This document shows positions 2,452-48,771 of a DNA stretch of 60,656 nt, in pieces; within the stretch, counting starts at the first letter, position 1; each line of letters starts with the position of its first letter. The DNA is taken from positions 1 through 60,656 of the IMG/VR virus record IMGVR_UViG_3300044691_000256, one strand, 5' to 3'. The notes below the pieces were generated by a model. It saw only the letters and a list, made by a program, of their open reading frames with translations, ran no database searches and was not told the DNA's origin. A program made the position numbers and the translations under genes. The DNA is from a virus.

Positions 2452-2884
2452 CGCCGCCTCCGTTATATCCCGTACCGTCTGAAATACTCACTACCTTGCT
2501 GGAAAGTCGTTGTTCTCGCGGCGACCGCAGCGGAGTCAGAGTCTTAGCATGGGTAACCAAGCACTTGATCCCGCAGAACGCCAGTTGTGTTCCGTCGAAT
2601 AGTTCCAGTTTGGCCGTCCGCCACAAACCGTCAGGTAGCAGATCATTGTCCGCCGCTGTTTGTTCCTGGTTCCAGCTTAGGACTTGTGGCACGGGGCAGG
2701 CCGGGTTATCACACTGGAACTGTACGTCGGTAGAGGAGATGATAGGCTCCTTCTTGTCGATGAAGGCAAAATGACCTTCTACGGTTTTGACGCGGACAAC
2801 CTGTTTGATCTCTTCGTTGACGATCTGGACATCATCGCCCTCTGTGGTTCTTACAGTCAGGGTTTGTTTGAATTGGACTGGCAT
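2444..2884 (-). CDS. Hypothetical protein with possible zinc-binding cysteines
   Basis: 146 residues. An N-terminal beta-rich part precedes a Cys-x4-Cys pair near residue 58 (CDNPAC) and CGIKC near residue 105, which could together bind zinc. No family recognised. It is coupled to the methyltransferase by a TAATG overlap and to the small membrane protein at its end. Confidence 0.65.
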   Translation of the reverse strand: MPVQFKQTLTVRTTEGDDVQIVNEEIKQVVRVKTVEGHFAFIDKKEPIISSTDVQFQCDNPACPVPQVLSWNQEQTAADNDLLPDGLWRTAKLELFDGTQLAFCGIKCLVTHAKTLTPLRSPREQRLSSKVVSISDGTGYNGGGDE

Positions 2885-4131
2885 TAGCAGGCGACCTCTT
2901 CTAGTTCGTCCATTTTCTGGACAGGCTTGGTGATGAATAGCGGGACTGCCTTTTGGATTCGCGTATGTGACAGTTCAACGTACTCCGGGTTCAACTCAAT
3001 GCCGATGTAGTTCCGTTCGTTGCTTAGAGCGACCACGCCTGTTGTGCCGCTGCCGCTGAAAGGATCGAGTACCGTGCCACCCTTCGGGCATCCCGCCAAC
3101 ACGCAAGGTTCGATTAGCTTAGTCGGAAAGGTTGCGAAGTGGGCACCTTTGTACGGTGAAGTTGTAACCGTCCACACGCTACGTTTGTTCCGGCCTTTCG
3201 TGGGGTCGCCGTACTGTGTCCTGCCGTCGTGTAGACCCGCTGTTGACCTGTTCCCTTGTTCTACCAAATGTGCAGTCTTGTGCTTCGAGGTACCGGAGTT
3301 GTACGTCCTGTCGGGATAAGTAAAAGGCTCCCGGATCGCGTCGGCATCGTAAAAGTAAGTCTTAGACTTGGACAAGAGAAAGATGTATTCGTGGGATTTA
3401 GTGCATCGGTCGGTTACACTTTCTGGCATTGCGTTGGGTTTCTCCCAAATTATGTCCTGCCTCAAATACCATCCGGCAGATCTCAGCGCAAAAGCCAACA
3501 TCCAAGGAACTCCGACTAAGTCTTTCGGCTTGCATACGCGCACAGAGTCCATCCGAGCAGGAACACTATCAACATCCAAATCGCCATGTTGTACATTTCC
3601 GCCATCGCAAAGGGAACTCCCAAGACTGATATCAGGCATAGCCACCCGCCCGACCGGAACAGAAGCAAATCCACGCCTTTCATTCCCGTAAGACCCACCA
3701 CCACCTTTTCCGCCTCCCGCATATGTATCTCCCATGTTGACCCAAATGGTTCCATCGTTCCGTAGAACCCGCCGTACTTCGCTAAAAACCGAGACCAGAC
3801 GTGCAATAAACTCGTCAGGCGAGGCTTCCAAACCAATCTGGTTATCTACCCTAGACGCCCCGCATTTTCCGCAAAGTTTCTTGTAGCTTGCTTCCTGAAG
3901 ATGACCCTGCGAATCCTTAGAACCGACTAGCGTTGACTTCGCGACTGCTTTTTCCGCATCTACGCGACTCGGAAGAAGATGATCGCATTCCGCAGAACCG
4001 CCAACCCAAGAGGCTGTTCCGTAGTCCCGTAAACCCCAATAGGGTGGGCTAGTCACCACACAGTTCACGGATTCATCAGGCAATGTCCGCAGTTTCTCTA
4101 TTACATCGCCCTGTAAGATTTGATACTCCAC
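2884..4131 (-). CDS. Site-specific DNA methyltransferase, TSPPY type
   Basis: 415 residues. VVTSPPYWGLRDYG near residue 30 is the catalytic motif of amino-methyltransferases (N4-cytosine or N6-adenine). LDPFSGSGTTG near residue 360 is the AdoMet-binding motif, so the order is that of the beta class. The region between carries probable target recognition sequence with cysteines (residues 50-95). It probably modifies phage DNA against host restriction or alters gene expression. No partner restriction gene is adjacent. The C-terminus contains the dispersed site in frame (VQKMDELE), and this end shares a 33-bp identical stretch with a small gene at 38.5 kb. Confidence 0.9.
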   Translation of the reverse strand: MEYQILQGDVIEKLRTLPDESVNCVVTSPPYWGLRDYGTASWVGGSAECDHLLPSRVDAEKAVAKSTLVGSKDSQGHLQEASYKKLCGKCGASRVDNQIGLEASPDEFIARLVSVFSEVRRVLRNDGTIWVNMGDTYAGGGKGGGGSYGNERRGFASVPVGRVAMPDISLGSSLCDGGNVQHGDLDVDSVPARMDSVRVCKPKDLVGVPWMLAFALRSAGWYLRQDIIWEKPNAMPESVTDRCTKSHEYIFLLSKSKTYFYDADAIREPFTYPDRTYNSGTSKHKTAHLVEQGNRSTAGLHDGRTQYGDPTKGRNKRSVWTVTTSPYKGAHFATFPTKLIEPCVLAGCPKGGTVLDPFSGSGTTGVVALSNERNYIGIELNPEYVELSHTRIQKAVPLFITKPVQKMDELEEVAC

Positions 4132-13409: not shown

Positions 13410-14612
13410 TTATTCCTCACCAAATCCGAAGCTATCGTCGTCAACTTCTTCAGGTGCTGCGTCCATTTTCTGGACAAGGAGTTGATCCACGAGTGACTTA
13501 TCCCCGAGGCACAGGCCCCGGTGTGAGCAATAGAGGCAGCGCGTGTCTGGGAATCTTACGCCGGGGTTGCGGGGCCACGAGTCGGTCTGGTGGGCTGCGT
13601 GAATCTCTACGAGGTCTTTGGCTATCTGATCTCCGGCTTCCTGCTTCGCTTCGTCGTTGATGACCACAGCCAGGAACTGGACCTTCTGTTTGGTAAAGTT
13701 ATCGGAGTGCGCGGTCAGCAGGTCACCGAACATGATACGTTCCTGAATGATTGCTTCCTTGCGCTCAGTCGACCCCTTCCCTTTTACCTCGGCCAACATC
13801 TCCGCTATCTTCTGTAGCCCAGCCTCGCTGCTGAGAAGTGCGGTTTTTGTTTCCTCGTCGTACTTGAATATGGTCGCTTTGTCCCCGGAGGTCCAGTCGG
13901 CTGTGGATGTGAGAAATGTGACTTCAACACCCTTCTGGAAACTGTCGACAATCGACTTGGTGAACCACAGGAAGGCCCAAGTGTCGACGCCTGATAGCCA
14001 CGCATACGAGCGAATTTGCATGTCGAGGGCAAGAAGCCCGGCAGTCAGGTTTAGCTCCGCACCGCCAGTTTTGATATCGATTCCGATTGGTCGATGAGAC
14101 GCCCCGCCTGGAATCTTGACCTTCGGCAAAAGCGGGTGGACCCACGGACCCTTACTTAACATGTCCACGAACCCCCCTTGTTCTAGTCCCGAAAGGTCAG
14201 TTCCTGGAAAAACCTCTTTAGAATAAGACAGTTGAAACACAGGCGACACGATAGGAAACGTGGGCAGCAGGATTTCGTACAGCTTTAGCATCTGCGCCCC
14301 AGCCACGTACAGGTTCTGCCAGGATTGATCCCGTTTTGTGTACACAAGTTCGGTGTCATCCTTGTGCTTCAGGAACAGCAGCTTGAAATGATCGACGCCC
14401 GAATCTGGTTTGAGACCGTTGTCGTGGTAGTACTGGATCGCATCTTCCAGCGCCTTCCCGAACTGCATCGCCCCGGACTTCTCTTTGCGACGAATGCCGA
14501 GGATCTTCTCCTGCTTGTATTTGTAGCGGCAGGAGTTGAATAGCTGGCTGGAACTGTACGACCCCCGAGTGACTGGGTTGCCTTTTGGGTTGGTGTATAA
14601 AATTGCGCTCAT
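13410..14612 (-). CDS. PD-(D/E)XK nuclease, RecB/AddB-like, with probable Fe-S cluster cysteines
   Basis: 400 residues. SSSQLFNSCRYKYK near residue 20 and GIDIKTGG near 190 give the core of the PDDEXK_1 nuclease family. C28 together with CLYCSHRGLC (about 362-371) forms the four-cysteine pattern seen around Fe-S clusters in AddB, Cas4 and related exonucleases. It probably serves as the exonuclease partner of the Bet annealase at 19496. The dispersed site near the C-terminus reads VQKMD. Confidence 0.85.
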   Translation of the reverse strand: MSAILYTNPKGNPVTRGSYSSSQLFNSCRYKYKQEKILGIRRKEKSGAMQFGKALEDAIQYYHDNGLKPDSGVDHFKLLFLKHKDDTELVYTKRDQSWQNLYVAGAQMLKLYEILLPTFPIVSPVFQLSYSKEVFPGTDLSGLEQGGFVDMLSKGPWVHPLLPKVKIPGGASHRPIGIDIKTGGAELNLTAGLLALDMQIRSYAWLSGVDTWAFLWFTKSIVDSFQKGVEVTFLTSTADWTSGDKATIFKYDEETKTALLSSEAGLQKIAEMLAEVKGKGSTERKEAIIQERIMFGDLLTAHSDNFTKQKVQFLAVVINDEAKQEAGDQIAKDLVEIHAAHQTDSWPRNPGVRFPDTRCLYCSHRGLCLGDKSLVDQLLVQKMDAAPEEVDDDSFGFGEE

Positions 14613-15907
14613 GCGAATGCTGCCTCCAATTCGTCCATTTCCCGGACGGGGTTTACGAACTCAATTCTTTTGCGTGCAATCTCTATGTACGTTTCGTCCT
14701 GCTCAATCCCGATGAAGTCAAACCCCTCAAGTACCGCTGCCTTGCCTGTGCTGCCACTTCCAGTAAAAGGGTCTAGCACGACGCCGCCCGGAGGGGTAAT
14801 CAACCGGCACAGATACCGCATAAGTTCGGTTGGCTTAACTGTAGGGTGACTGTTGCTACTGTTGCTACTGTTGCTACTGTTGCGCTGGTAAGCGTTGTCA
14901 ATCGAAACAACACGTCCGTCGTGGCTGTACTGCTTCGCCTCTAAATCCTCACAGCCTTCATTCCTGTCCGTCTTGTTCGCTTTAGCACAATAGAAAAACC
15001 GGGCCGGGCTACCCTTGTCATCATACTCGGAACCTGTGGCTGTCATACCCCACCCCAAACCGGCGGACACTGACTTGCGCGGTCTGCCCTTCTTGCTGGT
15101 CGATTCCCCGTACTTAGCAAACTCTTTCAGAACCTCGTCTGATCCGTCATGAATCAGATTGGCCGGAAACCTTCCCTCATTGTTCACAGTCGCCTTATAG
15201 TCTGGCCTCTTCTCTTCCCCAAACCCCGACCACTTTTCCAGTACGTTGATGGGGATTGGCTCACCGGGAACCCGGCAGGCGTCAATATTGATTGCTCCCG
15301 TTCCGTGTTCAAGAACTGTCTGAATAACGGTTCCGATCAGCGGCTTACGTGCGAGAACAATTGGCTCGTGTGCTGGCTTCAGTGCTGTTCCCCACCCGTC
15401 CCACTTCTTTGCATCGTCGGTGGCAGGGGCGGTAAGATCGGGGCGAAATCCACTATTCAGGTGGTCGTTGTCTTGGCCATATATTTGCGAGGTTGCGTTG
15501 TGTTTGTATTCTTTCTTATCACCGAGTCGTATACGCGGACCAGTCACCTCCCGCTCGGCACCGGCAGACTTATCAACGGCCTTGGACACATCCATACTTT
15601 TCGGAAAGCCTGATCCGTAAACCCACATGATCTGGTCGCGAATCTGGAACCCAGCGTCTTCAATAGCTGAAGCCATGCGGTGATACGTCCGACTACCGCC
15701 AAAACTCAAAAGGTGTCCGCCCGGCTTCAGAACCCGCAAACACTCCTTCCACATGTCCACGTTGTACGCAATCCCAGTCGAGTCCCACCCCTTCCCCATA
15801 AACCCTAGTTCGTAGGGTGGATCGCAAATGAGACTGTCGATACTGTTATCGGCGATAGTAGGCAGTATGCTTCGACAATCACCTAGAACTAACTTATAAT
15901 GACTCAT
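14609..15907 (-). CDS. DNA adenine methyltransferase, DPPY type
   Basis: 432 residues. Catalytic ICDPPYELGF is near residue 28, and the AdoMet site VLDPFTGSGSTG near 385, the same order as the other methyltransferase but with DPPY, favouring N6-adenine. A long central region probably reads the target. A Ser-Asn repeat (about 343-352), encoded by 9-bp tandem units, precedes HPTVKP. A diverged dispersed site near the C-terminus reads VREMDELE, mirroring VQKMDELE of the methyltransferase at 2884. ATGA coupling joins it to the nuclease gene. Confidence 0.9.
   Translation of the reverse strand: MSHYKLVLGDCRSILPTIADNSIDSLICDPPYELGFMGKGWDSTGIAYNVDMWKECLRVLKPGGHLLSFGGSRTYHRMASAIEDAGFQIRDQIMWVYGSGFPKSMDVSKAVDKSAGAEREVTGPRIRLGDKKEYKHNATSQIYGQDNDHLNSGFRPDLTAPATDDAKKWDGWGTALKPAHEPIVLARKPLIGTVIQTVLEHGTGAINIDACRVPGEPIPINVLEKWSGFGEEKRPDYKATVNNEGRFPANLIHDGSDEVLKEFAKYGESTSKKGRPRKSVSAGLGWGMTATGSEYDDKGSPARFFYCAKANKTDRNEGCEDLEAKQYSHDGRVVSIDNAYQRNSSNSSNSSNSHPTVKPTELMRYLCRLITPPGGVVLDPFTGSGSTGKAAVLEGFDFIGIEQDETYIEIARKRIEFVNPVREMDELEAAFA
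14851..14883. repeat. 9-bp tandem repeat inside the methyltransferase gene
   Basis: TGTTGCTAC occurs three times plus a partial fourth. On the coding strand it gives repeated Ser-Ser-Asn. Changes in copy number keep the reading frame and would alter the linker length. Confidence 0.9.
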
Positions 15908-32718: not shown

Positions 32719-33797
32719 TTCTCCTCCAGTAATCCCCTAAGCCTGGACCGCAGCTCGGGCACAAACGGTGTATAGTGCTTTTCGGCTACGGCTGTTGTGA
32801 TCCCTAACATTTTGGCTACGTCGTACATGGTGCCGCCGCGCAGCAAAATTGTTACGGCCAGCGTGTCACGAAACCTGTGGGGGCGGCAACCTGGAACTTT
32901 AGCACGGTCTCCCAAAGCGCGGACAAGGTTGTAGAGTTGAGTCCGGGTAGACGCCACGCCGTCTAGGACGAACCCCTCGTCCATCTTCTCCCGCATCAAC
33001 CATCTCACGAGGTACGCTTGGACCGGAATAACGACCTCCTTGCCTGTCTTGAGCATCGTCCGTCGTATCTCTTCGCTGTTGAAGTTGACTTCAGACCATT
33101 TCAGATCCACAGCATCCGACCCACGCAGTCCGGTCCACCGCAGAAGAGTGATAGCAAACTGTTCTTTGTCGGTCGCGCAGGCCGTCATTCGATCCATATC
33201 TTCATCCGTAAAAGGCTGCGTCACACTTCTCTCCGCTGTCGACTTCACTTTCTTGACCGGGTTCGCGCCGACCATATTTTCCTCCTTCGCAAAGCTGAAC
33301 ACCCCGCGTAACAGGTCCATCTCTTTTTCGAGCGCAGCCCCGTTACGGTATTGTGGTTTTGAGGCTGTTTCCGTTTCACGCCGGGAGCGGTATTTTTCCA
33401 TAACAGACTTGGTTATATATGTCAAGGGGGTACTGGCGGCGTTCGGTAGACTCTCTTCGAAGGTCTTGAGGTATCGGTCGTAGGCCCGCGCTGTGGATTT
33501 GGCCCATCCCTTGATGTGCTCTTTCCAATAAATGGACAACAGGTCGCCCCAGGTGCCGAGGGGCCGCACATCTACACCAACATGTCCGCTGAATCTTTTC
33601 CACGTCTGAGGAGGTAAGCTAGGCTCAAGGTCTATCCAGGCTTGACTACGCGGACCATCGGACATGGCAAAGCTGATTCGTGTCGCCAGCCGCTTCGCCG
33701 ACTTAGGATCTGAAGTCCCGAGCGGACCTCGTAAGCGCACCGGGCCAGACACGTAGTCTACGTGGTAGAGGTTGCCGCGCTTGCGAGTGGTGATCAC
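32715..33797 (-). CDS. Second tyrosine recombinase
   Basis: 360 residues. Core-binding domain about 70-175. Catalytic Arg in LLRWTGLRGSDAV (near 225), HRFRDTLAVTILL near 305 and Tyr in EKHYTPF near 342. No attachment repeats are evident beside it. It could resolve phage multimers, catalyse a second integration or be acquired. It lies within an operon of small genes, unlike the integrase at 29925. Confidence 0.88.
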   Translation of the reverse strand: MITTRKRGNLYHVDYVSGPVRLRGPLGTSDPKSAKRLATRISFAMSDGPRSQAWIDLEPSLPPQTWKRFSGHVGVDVRPLGTWGDLLSIYWKEHIKGWAKSTARAYDRYLKTFEESLPNAASTPLTYITKSVMEKYRSRRETETASKPQYRNGAALEKEMDLLRGVFSFAKEENMVGANPVKKVKSTAERSVTQPFTDEDMDRMTACATDKEQFAITLLRWTGLRGSDAVDLKWSEVNFNSEEIRRTMLKTGKEVVIPVQAYLVRWLMREKMDEGFVLDGVASTRTQLYNLVRALGDRAKVPGCRPHRFRDTLAVTILLRGGTMYDVAKMLGITTAVAEKHYTPFVPELRSRLRGLLEEK

Positions 33798-38727: not shown

Positions 38728-38903
38728 GCCTGCCTTGTGTTCCCATGTTTCAGAGGAGAGCACGGTCCACTATGATTTATTTCCAATCCACAAAAACAGG
38801 GTTCCATCGAAAAGGTCTCACATATGCAGTCTTCACAGTCTCTGCCGCAGATATTCGGGTCGCAGGGACAAGGATGAGTGTGCGGTGCCGCAGAGATTTT
38901 CAT
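38724..38903 (-). CDS. Cysteine-rich mini-protein
   Basis: 59 residues with 10 cysteines (CPCDPNICGRDCEDCICE, then CFCG and a further Cys). ATGA overlaps at both ends strongly support translation. It resembles a metal-binding or disulfide-rich peptide. No family recognised. Confidence 0.6.
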   Translation of the reverse strand: MKISAAPHTHPCPCDPNICGRDCEDCICETFSMEPCFCGLEINHSGPCSPLKHGNTRQA

Positions 38904-39133
38904 GTCCGCTTCTTCGCATTCTTCTCTCGTCTAGCAGCCTCAACAGCCTGTTTCACGGCCAGGTCATAAACCGAGGCCCAGCTAATCTCGTACCCCGACC
39001 GCATACCCTTAAGGCGGACAACGGCATGATAGGGGTGAGCTTCCAGCAGGATTTCGCGGTTGCGCCCGGACTCACGCTTGCATTCCGATGTCTCGATCCG
39101 TAGCCGCGACCGTCTTTCGCTTAGAGCTGTCAT
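38900..39133 (-). CDS. Hypothetical helical protein
   Basis: 77 residues from ATG at 39133 with AAGGTGG before it; the frame remains open upstream through the leader RNA. Arg-rich start, then a beta-like stretch and an Ala/Lys helix. A recurrent small-phage-protein style, function unknown. Confidence 0.6.
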   Translation of the reverse strand: MTALSERRSRLRIETSECKRESGRNREILLEAHPYHAVVRLKGMRSGYEISWASVYDLAVKQAVEAARREKNAKKRT

Positions 39134-39276
39134 CGCGCCACCACCTTGAAAATCTCGTAAAACAACACAGCCCAGAACCCCGCCCCGCTCAGCAGAACCA
39201 GGATTACAGGCAGATTGATCTTGTGGTGGGTCTTTACTCCGAGGTTCTGACGATCCAAGCTTTCGTACATAAACAT
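39130..39276 (-). CDS. Small membrane protein behind structured leader
   Basis: 48 residues with a hydrophobic helix at about 20-43 (INLPVILVLLSGAGFWAVLF). GGAGG before the ATG. It is the first gene after the long structured leader RNA, so its expression may be controlled by that RNA. Confidence 0.65.
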   Translation of the reverse strand: MFMYESLDRQNLGVKTHHKINLPVILVLLSGAGFWAVLFYEIFKVVAR

Positions 39277-39460
39277 GTTTCCTCCAGTACAGCGGACATG
39301 TTGTTGATTCTGTGGCGGTTGTGCAAATTCGTAGAACCATTGGCGTGCTCACGCGAGAATCAGTTTGCCCACAAATGTGGTGCTGTCCTCTTAGGTCTTA
39401 CGGCTATCGGGGTTGTAATAAGACCCGGCCTTGTGAGCACACCAATCGTCCTACGAATCT
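39277..39460 (-). ncRNA. Structured 5' leader RNA with a 26-bp closing stem
   Basis: The transcript from the promoter at 39467-39494 begins with an arm (39433-39458) that pairs with 39327-39352 over 26 positions with only one mismatch and two G-U wobbles. Inside are a 7-bp helix (39419-39425 with 39394-39400) and a short CCACA/TGTGG hairpin (39369-39380), giving a three-way junction. It is followed by CATGTCCGC, a GGAGG site and the membrane gene. A related element lies at 45413-45496. Confidence 0.6.
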
Positions 39461-39466
39461 ACGATG

Positions 39467-39494
39467 ATTATACACAAGACGAAACAGTTGTCAA
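39467..39494 (-). promoter_or_regulatory. Strong leftward promoter of the structured leader
   Basis: -35 TTGACA (39489-39494), 16-bp spacer, -10 TATAAT (39467-39472), both consensus. A dispersed site (39504-39518) lies ten bases upstream of the -35. Confidence 0.85.
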
Positions 39495-39517
39495 TATCCA
39501 CTCGTCCAGAAAATGGA

Positions 39518-39796
39518 TTATTTAACCCGGACCAGCCGGTGAACTGGCTTTCCATGTTCGATACAGTAGACACAATCCAGGCAGACATCCCGCAAGACTG
39601 TGGCCCCAGACTCCCTCCATTCAGCCGAGAGTTCTACTCTGATCCCCGGCCCGGCTCCACATATTTCGCAATCGTGTTTGGAGAAGAAAGGTTTGAGCGG
39701 TTCGTCTATCTCGTCTACCGCTCTTTGGACATCTCTGGTTTTGGAAGTGAACGAATCTACCTTCTTGCAATATTTTGTAAGCGCGCTGTAAGGCAT
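39518..39796 (-). CDS. Zinc ribbon protein
   Basis: 92 residues. CEICG near 43 and CLDCVYC near 73 form a zinc site; basic C-terminus. The dispersed site at 39504 adjoins its stop codon. Confidence 0.65.
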   Translation of the reverse strand: MPYSALTKYCKKVDSFTSKTRDVQRAVDEIDEPLKPFFSKHDCEICGAGPGIRVELSAEWRESGATVLRDVCLDCVYCIEHGKPVHRLVRVK

Positions 39797-48320: not shown

Positions 48321-48771
48321 CTAGGGTTACGTGGATTAAGCGAGACTGATTTTTTCTCCGCAATTTGTCTAAGTTTTGTGGACACTGTGAGTTAGCCTGA
48401 GATTTTAAACGGCACGTTAGTCTATCACAAATAGAATCAACGATATAGCAACGTGTTGTGACAGTTTTGAGCCAGTTTGCAACGAAATGACGACCCAAGC
48501 GAGGGAGATTCGGCCAGTATCGACGCGGTTTTAGGGGTATCTGGCTATAGATATGCCCTCTGTGTTGTGACGCAGGTTGTTGATTGCAGATGGGTTAGCT
48601 CTGCCTGACCCGTCTAGGAGTCCCAGAAGCCGAAGGTGATGTACCCGGCATGTCCCCTCGACCGGCTTGCTACTCCTTCACTTCACCTAGCAATGGCCTA
48701 CTTCGATTTCTGGACGCCATCCGGACGAAAAAATAATTTTATATTTCTGGACGAAAAATGGACGGAGAACA
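48321..48771. other. Gene-free stretch before the structural genes
   Basis: No convincing gene or tRNA in about 450 bases. The last 60 bases are AT-rich (AATAATTTTATATT) and hold TTCTGGACG twice with CGAAAAATGGACGG, fragments resembling arms of the dispersed site. A late promoter may lie here but no clear -35/-10 pair was found. Confidence 0.4.

Follow-up and report, generated by a model that had tools for sequence, protein, structure and literature searches.

The Phage and the Leader Locus

The DNA analysed here, hereafter the window, is a linear virus record of 60,656 bases from IMG/VR that carries genes for a terminase, a portal protein, a DNA polymerase, a primase-helicase, a RecT-like protein and two integrases. 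The two integrase genes differ from each other and lie on opposite strands (29925-31046 and 32715-33797), and there are also two DNA methyltransferase genes (2884-4131 and 14609-15907), both assigned to phrog_67. Searching with a portal profile recovered 245 relatives among viral contigs (80 of them were retained) and one match in a genome collection, a Candidatus Sulfotelmatobacter MAG. Since this MAG holds a relative of the portal gene, the host is likely an acidobacterium (Acidobacteriota). The phage itself belongs to a large uncultured family.

At the locus studied, all features lie on the minus strand. An ORF of 92 aa (39518-39796) is found upstream of a promoter, from which a leader RNA would be transcribed, and two small genes come after this RNA: the first (39130-39276) is an ORF for a 48-aa single-pass membrane protein (hydropathy 2.1), and the second (38900-39124), conserved in relatives, encodes 74 aa. 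The Shine-Dalgarno sequence of the 48-aa gene (GGAGG, 39281-39285) is situated outside the closed RNA domain. Domain searches recognised no family for either of these two genes, nor any antirepressor domain, and homology searches found no relatives of the 92-aa and 48-aa proteins. In L264, as in the window, a membrane ORF (65 aa in L264) stops 5 bp ahead of the 74-aa gene or its homologue, which supports the 48-aa ORF being a gene; under fixed ORF rules, such a membrane ORF was seen upstream of the 74-aa homologue in two of the ten regions inspected. The phage looks temperate and the 48-aa and 74-aa genes most likely form a short early operon, in which one trait of type I toxin-antitoxin systems is present, i.e., a small hydrophobic peptide together with a structured leader.

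Promoter and Putative Operator

The promoter (39467-39494) is of the sigma-70 type and matches the consensus TTGACA-16-TATAAT at 12 of 12 positions, with an expected transcript start at A39460 or G39459; on the plus strand, no promoter-like site reaching at least 9/12 was found within 39300-39500. Nine nucleotides upstream of its -35 box sits a copy, with one mismatch, of the near-palindrome GTCCATTTTCTGGAC (39504-39518). This motif matches the window 73 times at two mismatches or fewer, against 27.9 expected, and its core form occurs in 43 copies (e.g., 2114, 9240, 34072, 39504, 59908), which fall within genes and between them, in both orientations. Its 13-bp core was counted in all 30 records preselected by a 17-base pattern, with up to 28 copies in G007, and the reversed control gave none. 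The near-palindrome is likely a repressor operator distributed phage-wide, its scattered copies resembling the stoperators of mycobacteriophages. A second recurrent word, CATGTCCG, is present at 23 places in the window (e.g., 34110, 39300, 47450), often by gene starts, one copy directly preceding the 48-aa gene, and the akin GCGGACAA is likewise frequent.

A Strongly Structured Leader RNA

The leader RNA (39323-39460), as delineated by folding and a sliding scan, is predicted to form a three-way junction, about 135 nt in size, that a long stem closes. The two arms of this stem, P1 (5' arm, 39433-39458; 3' arm, 39327-39352), were located by an inverted-repeat search and, as DNA, make up a 26-nt inverted repeat that is 88% complementary with 80 nt between the arms, hence a unit of 132 bp. 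In the minus-strand RNA, 25 of the 26 positions pair (23 Watson-Crick and two G-U), the only exception being a G.G mismatch at the 12th position counted from the stem base. Inside the closing stem, the fold places hairpin P2 (39393-39426), with 9 bp and a 16-nt loop, and hairpin P3 (39355-39390), with an interrupted stem. Folding the RNA from 39462 to 39320 yields -69.6 kcal/mol, whereas its dinucleotide shuffles lie at -36.2 +/- 3.6 (z = -9.27), none of the 200 being equally stable, and its MFE and centroid structures are identical, with P1 closed around P2 and P3. Moreover, this site is the most structured of the whole window in a 150-nt sliding scan, and the closed domain is unchanged when the downstream leader is included in the fold. 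By these folding measures, the minus-strand leader RNA is genuinely and strongly structured, beyond what chance would produce.

These results bear out most of what an earlier note on this DNA had proposed from the letters alone, i.e., a structured leader behind a consensus promoter, a 26-bp closing stem in which two of the three differences become G-U pairs, two internal hairpins forming a three-way junction, and a stem ending 50 nt before the small membrane gene (ATG at 39276). Its statement that the transcript begins exactly at the arm fits an expected start 1-2 nt ahead of the P1 5' arm, this start being a predicted one. As for its reading of the wobbles as a sign of RNA-level selection, both G-U pairs do fall on the RNA strand, but two out of two would do so by chance in one case out of four, so that the argument is weak when taken alone.

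Searches for Homologues

Rfam returned no match at the gathering threshold for the window RNA and, at E-values up to 10, a single weak snoRNA match on the opposite strand and outside the RNA. Patterns built from the arms and from P2 both gave zero matches in viral contigs. With blastn, 30 records that share the operator and 48 that share the portal gene yielded best E-values of 0.003-0.005, all due to the operator or to chance. In L046/L047, a promoter-like match precedes a tRNA-like sequence rather than the window RNA, and P2-loop matches in L182, L185, L187 and L025 have no similar fold; both sets were rejected. The covariance search in related phages that the earlier note had suggested was run with a single-sequence model, of low power by design, and found only the window among 47 records. 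Since no homologue was found in the phages searched, there is no covariation for the window RNA itself, and the supporting covariation comes from the array of another phage (see below). Finally, the literature searches, during which PMC2864571 and PMC8708148 were consulted, listed no RNA of this kind. The leader RNA is therefore, at the sequence level, single-copy, so far unique and outside every Rfam family checked, and the claim that it had not been described before holds within the scope of Rfam and of that literature.

Two other explanations can be weighed at this point. The first is a DNA-level inverted repeat (a miniature transposable element, a recombination site or a replication site) that mimics an RNA, as a 132-bp unit with 26-bp terminal inverted repeats might suggest. 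Yet, the unit is single-copy and has no visible target duplication at its ends, no copies were found in the phages, plasmids and relatives searched, a consensus promoter adjoins it and the stems of the G005 array described below show an RNA-strand bias, all of which make this explanation improbable; the miniature transposon in particular was rejected on account of the single copy. The second is a riboswitch, an attenuator or a protein-binding autoregulatory leader of the 48-aa and 74-aa genes. While the leader position and the compact junction would suit such a role, no terminator-like site was found on the minus strand at the leader, the closed domain is not paired to the Shine-Dalgarno sequence in the predicted fold, no Rfam class was recognised and, in relatives, no such RNA lies ahead of the 74-aa gene. 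Hence, we give this second explanation little probability, and the suggestion of a riboswitch-like element is unsupported: no expression platform is seen, the Shine-Dalgarno sequence is outside the structured domain and neither of the genes that follow could be placed in a family.

Recurrence of the Architecture in Related Phages

An inverted-repeat scan of the window and its relatives (248 strands, 2.13 Mb), in which 24 or more of 26 positions had to pair as RNA and the arms had to enclose 40-200 nt, returned 30 matches, against none in 60 of the 248 strands after mononucleotide shuffling (1.07 Mb). Nine of the 30 were kept: the window, five on the plus strand of G005_L056 and one each in G008_L070, G053 (-4288) and G055 (8390). 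Those left out comprise at least seven tandem repeats and two matches in or across ORFs, the remainder having been set aside uninspected. On reference phages, the same scan gave one match in lambda and none in P1 (first 50 kb) and T7. G053, G008 and G055 each have a single element, which lies about 30 nt ahead of a Shine-Dalgarno sequence in G053 and 11 nt ahead of an ATG in G008.

The phage G005 (109 kb) has a different arrangement, since a largely ORF-poor stretch of 4.6 kb (L056:12850-17450) is occupied by long-stem domains nearly end to end, the longest-stemmed of which have closing stems of 22-57 pairs and are separated by gaps of 1-3 nt. This array has no match in Rfam. On the plus strand, the stems of seven domains have 22 G-U against four A.C oppositions, a count that is only indicative because the scan tolerates G-U and thereby favours it over A.C. 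Two paralogous domains (13796-14089 and 14091-14348) can be compared at 21 stem positions, of which five have changed on both sides while keeping the pair, 12 are unchanged, three have changed on one side and one is a shared G.G mismatch. Such a G.G mismatch is found in four of the 11 stems compared, and it is mid-stem in both the window and G008. No sequence similarity was detected between the G005 domains and the window RNA, so that a common origin would be conjecture. Altogether, the long-stem architecture recurs in the phage family without sequence similarity.

Comparison with Known RNAs

A similar layout is that of the immI region (c4-icd-ant) of phage P1, whose c4 antisense RNA (RF01695) is covered in PMC8546580. 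The P1 record includes operator Oc4, promoter P2c4, the c4 RNA (48343-48419), target sites a2/b2, icd and ant, and in the predicted fold of its c4 RNA a long stem encloses two hairpins. The window likewise has a distributed operator by a sigma-70 promoter, a leader RNA in which two hairpins sit inside a long stem, and a small gene next, so that it might encode an antisense RNA cut from its own operon leader that blocks translation just downstream. However, the closing stem has about 17 bp in c4 against about 26 bp in the window, there is no sequence match, and the RF01695 covariance model does not match the window either at the gathering threshold or at E-values up to 10. Furthermore, complementarity between the loops and the downstream leader is significant in the P1 c4 control (p = 0.002) but not in the window (p = 0.31), nor was it detected in relatives (G053, 0.61; G008, 0.40; five G005 domains, 0.09-0.61). 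Against the downstream sequence, the score of the whole window RNA core is equalled by one of 40 shuffles and that of its two loops by 20-21 of 40, and single segments against the near leader give p = 0.10-0.42. Considering also that neither downstream gene has an antirepressor domain, an antisense role of this kind appears quite unlikely, and the earlier suggestion of an antisense-type regulator fails in the P1 c4 sense. Because its loops lack complementarity to the downstream leader, the window RNA is c4-like in layout and is not assigned to c4.

Other known systems were also considered. The giant ornate RNAs GOLLD and ROOL recall G005, which also has a large structured non-coding region, but neither the G005 array nor the window RNA has an Rfam match to them or to any other family. 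A retron msr-msd was rejected, as there is no reverse transcriptase (PF00078 in none of seven records, window included).

A Putative RNase III Processing Stalk

In pre-rRNA and in the early messages of T7, the stalks cut by RNase III are long imperfect duplexes of about two helical turns that close a domain. The closing stem of the window RNA, of 24-28 bp, spans about two turns of A-form RNA and is thereby as long as the well-known duplexes that RNase III cuts; the window shares such a duplex, but with no rRNA or T7-type gene, and cutting in the window is putative. A precedent is CJnc190 of Campylobacter, which, according to PMC8687705, is excised by RNase III through a flanking intramolecular duplex. 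There too, a long intramolecular duplex joins both RNA ends and cleavage by RNase III is proposed on both sides; the differences are that CJnc190 is bacterial, stands as a gene of its own and has an antisense partner, and that its processing was demonstrated, while that of the window RNA is a proposal.

RNase III itself was searched with profile PF14622, which matched one of 43 phage records, and this record is G005 (E = 8e-27, in a 260-aa frame without stops). The corresponding gene, of about 250 aa, is located at L057:4803-5552 (G005:44803-45552). The co-occurrence of an RNase III gene and a stem array concerns this one record and was noticed post hoc. No RNase III gene was found in the window, but the Sulfotelmatobacter MAG with the related portal gene carries one, so that the window phage would find such an enzyme in its host.

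Taken together, the stability of the fold (z = -9.27), the length of the stem, its recurrence in relatives, the covariation and the RNase III of G005, and the CJnc190 precedent lead us to suggest, tentatively and at somewhat less than even confidence, that the closing stem serves as a processing stalk for RNase III, whose cut frees a branched RNA and leaves a processed message end. Briefly, the consensus promoter beside the distributed operator would produce the leader RNA in one message with the 48-aa and 74-aa genes. RNase III would then cut the closing stem, releasing a branched RNA, compact and some 85-110 nt long, that would act as a small RNA, while the gene message would keep a processed 5' end; as long as the stem is uncut, it would bury the 5' end and the message would be protected. 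That a host enzyme does the cutting in the window phage, and that the freed RNA has a role, we infer; a search for its targets over 154 start-like sites found none (p = 0.73).

Alternatively, the leader may merely shield its 5' end from 5'-dependent decay and, as an insulator, leave the region of the Shine-Dalgarno sequence open, with no RNA being freed. The predicted start immediately before the stem and the position of the Shine-Dalgarno sequence outside the closed domain both agree with such a shield, but a plain hairpin would be enough for this purpose, and the inner hairpins and the tandem arrays of G005 would be superfluous, which is why we regard it as rather unlikely. The processing stalk can also be extended to the whole family, as a class of sequence-unrelated, long-stem branched RNAs, single ones in leaders or several in tandem arrays, that RNase III would excise, once by means of a phage-encoded enzyme, and of which the window would be a single-copy member with the central mismatch setting the cut. 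In this full form, the proposal is more doubtful still and should be taken as speculative.

Very little is known of structured RNAs in phages whose hosts are uncultured Acidobacteriota of the soil. Should the stems indeed act as processing stalks, small RNAs would arise in these phages much as rRNA matures, and a phage-encoded RNase III together with its substrate array would amount to a self-contained RNA-processing system.
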